This document shows, in pieces, positions 7,350 to 58,274 of a stretch of DNA of 64,000 nucleotides; position 1 is the first letter of the stretch, and the number at the start of each line of letters is the position of its first letter. The DNA is taken from contig JAAZNC010000049.1 in NCBI GenBank assembly GCA_012798455.1, forward strand, positions 1-64,000, in the 5' to 3' direction. Both the position numbers and the translations under genes were made by a program. A model generated the notes under the pieces. The model was not told where the DNA came from. It did no database searches and was given only the letters and a program-made list of their open reading frames with translations. Origin of the DNA: Chloroflexota bacterium. GTDB taxonomy: Bacteria; Chloroflexota; Anaerolineae; Anaerolineales; Anaerolineaceae.

Positions 7350-7447
7350 CTAATTTAAGTCGGCTTGACGCGAGCCAATAAAATTGAATGGGATCGGACT
7401 ATACCGTTGCGCGACAGTACCGGATTTTCACCGGATTTCACCATTTT
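7328..7447 (-). promoter_or_regulatory. Cobalamin riboswitch upstream of nrdDG
   Basis: On the minus strand the leader reads GGTGAAATCC, then GGTGAAAATCCGG, then ACTGTCGCGCAACGGTA. This is the conserved J3/4-P4-P5-P6 core of cobalamin riboswitches (GGUGaaAauCCgg, aCUG, CGCAAC). A degenerate B12-box-like AAGCCGAC (7367-7360) follows near the 3' end. The element is short, about 120 nt, with no room for a full peripheral P1-P2 at the 5' side, so it resembles the compact variants. A terminator closes it. The expected behaviour is termination when cobalamin is bound. Confidence 0.8.
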
Positions 7448-7462
7448 TATTTTGTTGGGATA

Positions 7463-55803: not shown

Positions 55804-56331
55804 TTATTCAAAGCAGGGAGAGGGTTGGATGCTGCTGGCGCGATTTCCGCAGAAGGCAGAACTGCTGCTGAGCCGTCCGGTGAATTCATCTTCAGTTGAG
55901 TCGATGTACATATAGAAATCGCCCGAAGTGCCGTCAGTGTTCTCCCATGTTCCGATGATGGATCCACCATCTTCCTGGATCATTCCGATGAAGGAAATGG
56001 AATTGTGATTAGTAACAACGGTGGTTCCGCTGATCTTATCTCCCTGTACCAGGAAATTAATGGTATAGGCTTTACTTGAGTTGCCCATCCATATCTTCCA
56101 TTCGCCGTCCCAATCCACATTCTTGGTCACAACTGTGGTCGGTGCGATGGTGGAGGTGCTGACCGCCTTTTCTTCCTCGGCTGCAGCAGCTTCCGTATTG
56201 GTGGCAGCGGGTGGCAGGGTGGGGATCACTATTTCTTCCTGTTGAGTCTGGAAAAAGGGAAAACTGCAAGCCATCGAGATGATCGCCAGGCAGCTGATGC
56301 AAATGATCGCAAGATTGATGGGCTTTCTCAT
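55804..56331 (-). CDS. Putative lipoprotein of unknown function
   Basis: A 175-residue exported protein. The signal peptide ends in a lipobox (CLAIISMAC, Cys 22). A low-complexity Thr/Ala/Glu linker follows up to about residue 70, then a compact domain of alternating beta strands (DGEWKIWMG, INFLVQGDKISGTTVVTNHNS, GGSIIGTWENTDGTSGDFYMYID). The second part resembles small beta-barrel/lipocalin-like domains that report a change in polymer or ligand, but I do not recognise a named family. It has its own promoter. Confidence 0.7.
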   Translation of the reverse strand: MRKPINLAIICISCLAIISMACSFPFFQTQQEEIVIPTLPPAATNTEAAAAEEEKAVSTSTIAPTTVVTKNVDWDGEWKIWMGNSSKAYTINFLVQGDKISGTTVVTNHNSISFIGMIQEDGGSIIGTWENTDGTSGDFYMYIDSTEDEFTGRLSSSSAFCGNRASSIQPSPCFE

Positions 56332-56400: not shown

Positions 56401-56480
56401 AACTATACAACATAATTCTAAACCTAAATCAAGCAGAATAAAAATTCTTCATTTACATTTATCCTAGATAATAAATGTGG

Positions 56481-56588
56481 TAGAATCGGTTGCGCGATGG
56501 AGATACCATCACAATAGAGATCTTGCTTGGTTGGAAGTGCCTTGCTGGTTTCAGAAGGCGCTTTTTTTATTGTATATAGGAGAAAATA
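56481..56588 (+). promoter_or_regulatory. Structured leader with attenuator ahead of the DEAD-box helicase
   Basis: An extended -10 (TGG-TAGAAT, 56478-56486) opens a leader of about 95 nt. It contains a small hairpin (GATGG/CCATC, 56496-56500 and 56506-56510) and then an intrinsic terminator hairpin (56536-56543 and 56555-56562) with a run of seven T, ending 26 bases before the start codon. The layout is that of a conditional terminator, not a simple 5' leader. Confidence 0.6.
56536..56570 (+). terminator. Leader terminator (attenuator) of the helicase gene
   Basis: 8-bp stem (56536-56543 with 56555-56562, one G-U pair), 11-base loop, followed by TTTTTTATT. No gene ends upstream on this strand, so it can only act on the helicase transcript itself. 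Confidence 0.75.
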
Positions 56589-58274
56589 ATGGCATTACAT
56601 TTTAAAGATTTTGGTCTGGATGGGCAATATCTCCAGGCTGTCGAGCAACTCGGGTTTAGGGAACCCACACCTATTCAACAATCTGTTATCCCTCTTTTGT
56701 TGGATGGAAATGACGTGATTGGTCAAGCCCAAACCGGTACTGGTAAAACGGCTGCGTTTGTATTGCCGTTGCTTCAGCAAATCCGAACTGGTAGAGGATT
56801 TATCCAGGCGTTGATCCTGGCTCCCACACGCGAATTAACGATTCAAATTGCCAAAGAAATCGAACGGATTGCGAAATTCTCCCCGATAAAAATTGTAACA
56901 GTCTACGGCGGGCAATCTTATGATGTTCAAATTCGTGAGCTAAAAAAGGGGACGGATATTGTTGTAGCAACTACAGGCAGGCTGATCGATCTGATCCACA
57001 AAAAGGTCATCAAATTGGACCAGGTTCAATTTCTTGTACTGGATGAGGCTGATGAAATGCTTGAAATGGGCTTTGTGGAGGATATCGAGGAAATACTCAA
57101 GAATCTACCTAATGTGGAACAGAAAGCATTATTTTCAGCGACCATGCCAAAAACGGTGCGCGCGCTGGCTGACAAATATATGGTACATCCACAAGAGATC
57201 ATGATCAATCCTTCCAATGAAACATTGGATGAGATCGACCAGCGTTGTTATTTTGTGCGCAATGAAAAAAAATATACGACACTTTTAAAAGTGCTTGAAA
57301 TGGATGAAGTCCAAAGTGCTTTGATCTTTGTGCGTACCAAGCAACGTGCTCAAGATCTGGCAGATGATCTGCTGGCCGATGGATATTCTGCCCGTGCGAT
57401 GCACGGCGATTTGAGTCAGAAACAGCGTGAGGTAACGTTGATGAGTTTCAGAAAACATCAGATTACTTTAATGGTAGCCACGGATGTGGCAGCACGCGGG
57501 TTGGATATCAAAAACGTCTCCCATGTTTTTAATTATGATATGCCTGCAGATCCGGAAGATTACATTCATCGAATTGGTAGAACCGGTAGAGCTGGGAGGA
57601 AAGGCTCTGCTGTTACTTTCTTTACAAAAAAAGAAGGAAGAATGCTCAACCAAATTGAATCCTTCAGCCATCAAAAAATTCAAGAATTCGCTGTTCCTTC
57701 GCAGGCAGAGATCCAGGCGAAGAGAGATGCAGCATTTCTGCAAAAATTGACCGATCAGATAAAACACGGTGATATGAAACATGAACAAATACTGGTTGAG
57801 CAATTGATGGAAATGGATCACGAAGCCATGGATATTGCAGCAGCGGCTATTCGTCTGGCGCGCAGCAATGAATCTCCGATCTCGGAAGCCAAGCATCAAA
57901 AAGAGAGTAATGTTGCTACAGATGGTATTTCACGATCTCGTCATTCCGAATCTAAATTTGATGAACCGGTCAAGATGAATTCACGCGCTACCTATAAGAA
58001 TCCATTCAGTGATTACCATATCCATGAACAGGAAAATGGCATGGTGTGTGTGAAGATGAATCTGGGAAAGAAACAGGGTATCCGGCCGGGAGATGTGGTG
58101 GGGACTATTACCGGAGAGACAGGTGTGCCTGGAAAGACCATTGGAAAGATCCATATTTTCAATGATCATACTCTAGTTGATATTTCAGAAAATCATGTAC
58201 AGAAGATTCTTAAAAACAGCAATGGTCAGTACAAACTGCGGGGAGTTCCAGTGCGACTGACCAAAGCCAATTAG
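56589..58274 (+). CDS. deaD: DEAD-box RNA helicase with DbpA-type RNA-binding domain
   Basis: ATP-dependent RNA helicase, 561 residues, of the DeaD/CshA group that remodels ribosomal and other structured RNAs, mainly at low temperature. Motifs in order: Q-motif FREPTPIQQ, I AQTGTGKT, Ia PTRELT, II DEADEM (DEAD), III SATMP, IV ALIFVRTK, V ATDVAARGLDI, VI HRIGRTGRAG. A charged linker of about 100 residues leads to a C-terminal DbpA-like RNA-binding domain (about 485-561). Autoregulation through the leader terminator is inferred. Confidence 0.95.
   Translation: MALHFKDFGLDGQYLQAVEQLGFREPTPIQQSVIPLLLDGNDVIGQAQTGTGKTAAFVLPLLQQIRTGRGFIQALILAPTRELTIQIAKEIERIAKFSPIKIVTVYGGQSYDVQIRELKKGTDIVVATTGRLIDLIHKKVIKLDQVQFLVLDEADEMLEMGFVEDIEEILKNLPNVEQKALFSATMPKTVRALADKYMVHPQEIMINPSNETLDEIDQRCYFVRNEKKYTTLLKVLEMDEVQSALIFVRTKQRAQDLADDLLADGYSARAMHGDLSQKQREVTLMSFRKHQITLMVATDVAARGLDIKNVSHVFNYDMPADPEDYIHRIGRTGRAGRKGSAVTFFTKKEGRMLNQIESFSHQKIQEFAVPSQAEIQAKRDAAFLQKLTDQIKHGDMKHEQILVEQLMEMDHEAMDIAAAAIRLARSNESPISEAKHQKESNVATDGISRSRHSESKFDEPVKMNSRATYKNPFSDYHIHEQENGMVCVKMNLGKKQGIRPGDVVGTITGETGVPGKTIGKIHIFNDHTLVDISENHVQKILKNSNGQYKLRGVPVRLTKAN

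Follow-up and report, generated by a model that had tools for sequence, protein, structure and literature searches.

The DEAD-box RNA helicase gene in the 64,000-nucleotide stretch of DNA analyzed here (the window) is preceded by a hairpin and a terminator, which raises the question of whether its transcription is attenuated in its own leader and, if so, what decides read-through. The sequence-only reading had proposed such an attenuator, with a hairpin and an intrinsic terminator between promoter and ATG and with no upstream gene to terminate, and had named the helicase, cold or a ligand as what might decide read-through. The gene (56589-58274, + strand) encodes 561 amino acids, and its Pfam domains (DEAD, Helicase_C, DeaD_dimer and the DbpA RNA-binding domain) confirmed the helicase identity. 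The window comes from a genome of the family Anaerolineaceae (Chloroflexota), whose nearest named relatives are Chloroflexi and Anaerolineaceae MAGs. We recovered the proposed layout by folding and sequence comparison, the promoter being recognized by its sequence alone. An extended -10 element, TGGTAGAAT (56478-56486, +), is followed by hairpin 1, GATGG-AGATA-CCATC, which folds at the 5′ end of the leader RNA (56496-56510, +); transcription would be expected to start at about 56492-56494. Downstream lies a conserved, unpaired linker, GATCTTGCTTGGTT (56519-56532, +), delineated by near-invariant alignment columns and by a covariance-model match at 56515-56567. The intrinsic terminator, GAAGTGCCTT..AAGGCGCTTTTTTT, identified by folding and covariation, has a bulged inner stem and is followed by seven T (56534-56568, +), and the Shine-Dalgarno sequence AGGAG (56578-56582, +) is situated 6 nt upstream of the ATG. 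Given that the upstream ORF (55804-56331) is divergent and located on the opposite strand, there is no co-directional gene for the terminator to serve, and we ruled out that it terminates the upstream neighbor. The terminator thus lies between the helicase gene's own putative promoter and its start codon, serving no other gene. Moreover, a consensus scan of the window detected no promoter-like site between the terminator and the ATG, and the extended -10 element precedes hairpin 1, so that a start site downstream of the hairpin, which would have spoken against attenuation, is not indicated.

The terminator folds at -16.2 kcal/mol, with a z-score of -3.8 against dinucleotide shuffles; it was missing from the list of a simple consensus scan, probably because of its bulged inner stem. 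Terminator folding was likewise significant against dinucleotide shuffles in 26/26 leaders, and the orthologue terminators usually carry the loop GCCGGTTTCGGC. In an alignment fitted to the model, 7 of the 11 terminator stem pairs had changed on both sides, 85% of stem cells were paired (39-51% with the partner slid), 32 double-changed stem cells were observed against 9.7 in shuffles, and the stem covariation score surpassed that of all 500 shuffles; such counts are inflated by related rows. The unfitted alignment displayed double changes in 6 of 9 stem pairs. Stem covariation and the covariance-model search described below indicated that the terminator is conserved, with selection acting on its structure.

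Across the class, a terminator-like site was located within 150 nt of the start in 59 of the 131 orthologue leaders, which were chosen as best protein matches, and within 300 nt in 104. Among 62 control genes, drawn from the same loci and having free upstream sequence, a single one had such a site within 150 nt upstream, which rules out a chance terminator. The sole control with a site was a ribonucleotide-reductase-like gene, which constitutes a good positive control: upstream of it lies the AdoCbl-II riboswitch of the window (7381-7453, - strand), an element with its own leader terminator.

To search for the linker and terminator jointly, we used a covariance model, R1, built from 21 sequences that included the window leader, which itself matched at 58 bits, with a genome-wide E-value of about 3e-9. 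The search of 147 genomes of the family returned 24 matches of at least 39 bits, one per genome, and all 24 were positioned directly upstream of the helicase gene, itself located independently by protein search. The next matches scored below 34 bits, and the three inspected were terminators without the linker. Because most of the 24 family leaders had entered R1, this result indicates that those genomes carry no further copy of the motif, and it adds no new members. The search of 396 genomes of the class, whose matches were not in the R1 training set, provided an independent test. Outside the family, linker-bearing matches were obtained in four genomes of one genus belonging to a distant family, and all four lie ahead of the helicase orthologue; upstream of them we again observed a hairpin, together with TGCTATAAT. 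A window-like leader was also observed in a MAG labelled Proteobacteria, in which GGTATCGTGGAGTG is followed by a terminator that has GCCGGAACTGGC as its loop. This leader, separated by 27 nt from the helicase match, may reflect transfer or a mislabelled bin.

We considered whether the element could be an independent small RNA gene that lies before the helicase gene by chance, the helicase being expressed via read-through. A 5′ hairpin, an unpaired seed and a terminator are the layout of many small RNAs; nevertheless, the motif was found directly before the helicase gene only, in 24/24 family genomes and in the distant family, and no second promoter was seen between the terminator and the ATG in the window, rendering this explanation quite improbable. 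A leader released by a cis-acting attenuator could also act in trans.

The same order of parts, namely an extended -10 element, a variable hairpin, the linker, the terminator, the Shine-Dalgarno sequence and the ATG, was present in the leaders of same-family orthologues. We matched TGNTANNNT at the place of the extended -10 element, upstream of hairpin 1, in 25/25 parsed leaders, the conservation of its TG being partly imposed by a search pattern that demanded TG. Hairpin 1 of the window is unexceptional on its own (z -1.7, p 0.08), and a hairpin at its place reached p<0.05 against shuffles in 13 of 26 orthologous leaders. In most of these leaders, a hairpin occupies the same place with a different sequence and a structure that is usually kept. 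The covariation anticipated for both hairpins was accordingly found for the terminator, while hairpin 1 is maintained as a structure whose sequence is not conserved.

The linker is close to GATCGTGCTTGGTT / GTGATCGTGCNNGGTT in the family consensus, with two invariant columns and four more that are at least 90% conserved. By eye, AGTGATCGTGC-TTGGTTT resembled the stretch after helix 92 of 23S rRNA. This resemblance was not significant, and none of the linkers compared with 23S helices 89-93 gave a p value below 0.2, which provides no support for rRNA mimicry. On inspection of the sequence, CGTGCTT within the linker bears a resemblance to an ops-like pause element.

We then asked what could control read-through. 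Pairing between the upstream part and the 5′ arm of the terminator did not exceed that of shuffled sequences (median z -0.12); no mutually exclusive helix emerged, and a two-state terminator/antiterminator switch was unsupported. Masking of the start region was also rejected for the window's leader type, in which no complement beyond chance was detected. A leader-peptide attenuator was discarded as well: a six-codon ORF, read by eye, was present in three leaders of the genus and absent from the others. Searches against Rfam returned no family match for the leader or the relatives tested, which places the leader in no known riboswitch class.

These results bear on two further explanations. A riboswitch, in which a small molecule would bind the leader and control termination, is suggested by the riboswitch-like position and terminator and by the AdoCbl-II riboswitch in the same window. 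However, no Rfam match and no antiterminator were found, the sequence of hairpin 1 is unconserved and the conserved unpaired part comprises only about 14 nt, making this explanation extremely improbable. Alternatively, the terminator could be a plain dampener, leaky enough to cut helicase expression by a fixed factor and subject to no regulation. Both the lack of an antiterminator helix and the retention of the terminator despite sequence change would fit, yet this explanation leaves the near-invariant unpaired linker unaccounted for and raises the question of why a weak promoter would not serve instead; we regard it as unlikely.

Collectively, these findings favor, with a probability of roughly 0.7, a reading in which the leader is a cis-acting, conserved and gene-specific transcription attenuator of the helicase gene, with the helicase as the likeliest reader of the linker. 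The sequence-only reading is thus supported in part: its attenuator gains support from layout, conservation and terminator covariation, and the helicase, cold and a ligand are candidates for the control of read-through. That the element is functional, terminating transcription with consequences for the gene, appears highly probable; termination in vivo and its regulation are what we infer from these comparisons. In the proposed mechanism, transcription would begin just before hairpin 1, and the polymerase would transcribe the leader from hairpin 1 through the linker to the terminator. A fraction of the polymerases would stop at about 56562-56568, freeing an RNA of about 75 nt, and helicase mRNA would come only from those that read through. 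A control point after transcription start would thereby probably set the amount of helicase. Since no antiterminator helix was found, the fraction reading through would depend either on incomplete termination or on a trans-acting factor recognizing the unpaired linker next to the terminator. The helicase itself would be the likeliest such factor, because the motif was found before the helicase gene only. Spare helicase, unoccupied by other RNA, would bind the leader and favor termination, thereby establishing negative feedback. Autogenous control of this kind is our leading guess, held at somewhat less than even odds.

DeaD-type helicases are commonly cold-induced, and temperature, or a general factor such as cold-shock proteins or NusA/NusG-dependent pausing, could instead act at the linker and terminator, yielding more helicase when RNA overfolds. 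The position of a conserved unpaired sequence adjoining the terminator is in keeping with this explanation, as is the temperature-controlled autoregulation reported for the helicase CrhR (PMC3485376). A general factor would be expected to act on other genes too, yet all strong R1 matches precede the helicase gene, and we consider such a factor fairly unlikely.

The helicase attenuator differs in its linker between helicase clades. Type B leaders, found in other helicase clades, have the linker TTGTTTTGATNNTTCC followed by a GCCCG..CGGGC terminator, and type C leaders have the linker GATCNNTTGCAATTTCGG followed by the terminator AAGGATTTGCC..GGCAAGTCCTTTT. On a tree built from 77 helicase proteins, 9 changes of leader type were required, compared to 40 with shuffled labels. 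The window's type, type A, fell in one fully supported clade, shared with the Leptolinea group, plus the distant genus. Since the Leptolinea group belongs to the window's helicase clade and has no terminator, the attenuator is dispensable. In four leaders of this group, we observed a long upstream stretch with the conserved pieces GACAGGATGCCCCGGATA and CGCATCTCCC. Furthermore, one genome of the window's own genus encodes a B-clade helicase with a B-type leader, indicating that leader and gene travel together. The tracking of helicase clade by leader type would fit an autogenous loop, and vertical inheritance alone would also give that tracking. Outside the class, the picture was patchy.

Some leaders of other types may additionally mask the start. 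In eight B-type leaders, the element TCATCAAAAC lies between the terminator and the start and has two complementary partners, GTTTTGAT ahead of the terminator and GTTTTGATGA in the Shine-Dalgarno/start region; one of the eight (L117) carries a co-varied version of the element, TATTGAT. A single element fitting both partners was present in 7 of 56 B-like leaders, and complementarity to the first element averaged 5.8 nt in B-like leaders versus 5.0 nt in shuffles. A translational switch is therefore possible in B-type leaders. Five leaders from other families in the class share a conserved stretch downstream of the terminator, CTTACTTGC or a close variant, whose complement is found in the Shine-Dalgarno region (GCAAGTAAGG); this suggests a second, different masking step. 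We tentatively propose, as a possibility that falls well short of even odds, that the DeaD-type helicases of the Anaerolineae have homologous autogenous attenuators with clade-specific linkers read by the helicase, one type adding Shine-Dalgarno/start masking, and that these constitute an undescribed family of self-limiting leaders.

Among known systems, terminator riboswitches such as the window's AdoCbl-II element likewise have an intrinsic terminator downstream of the promoter and ahead of the start codon, whereas the helicase leader lacks both a conserved aptamer and an alternative antiterminator helix. The nearest working analogues are the autogenous ribosomal-protein leaders, of which the L20 leader of Bacillus subtilis is reportedly one: there, too, a structured leader precedes the gene of an RNA-binding protein whose product is the suspected regulator. 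Unlike these, the helicase leader has no detected rRNA mimicry and no antiterminator helix, and binding by its product is only proposed. The nearest biological precedent that we found is CrhR, a DEAD-box helicase of Synechocystis whose expression is reported to depend on its own product through transcriptional and post-transcriptional control (PMC3485376). CrhR resembles the window helicase in being a DEAD-box gene with autoregulation, which is only proposed for the window, and differs in its unrelated lineage and in that the abstract mentions no leader terminator (PMC3485376). In the open-access literature, a scope that makes absence weak evidence, we found no leader attenuator of a DEAD-box helicase, and a conserved attenuator of a helicase gene is apparently undescribed.

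Although attenuation in leaders is a familiar mechanism, none of the Rfam families and none of the open-access papers found describes it for a gene encoding a DEAD-box helicase. Its spread over an understudied class offers many natural variants for testing. If the helicase does read its own leader, one short RNA would let the cell sense spare helicase, and spare helicase would in turn report the demand arising from ribosome assembly and cold-stiffened RNA.
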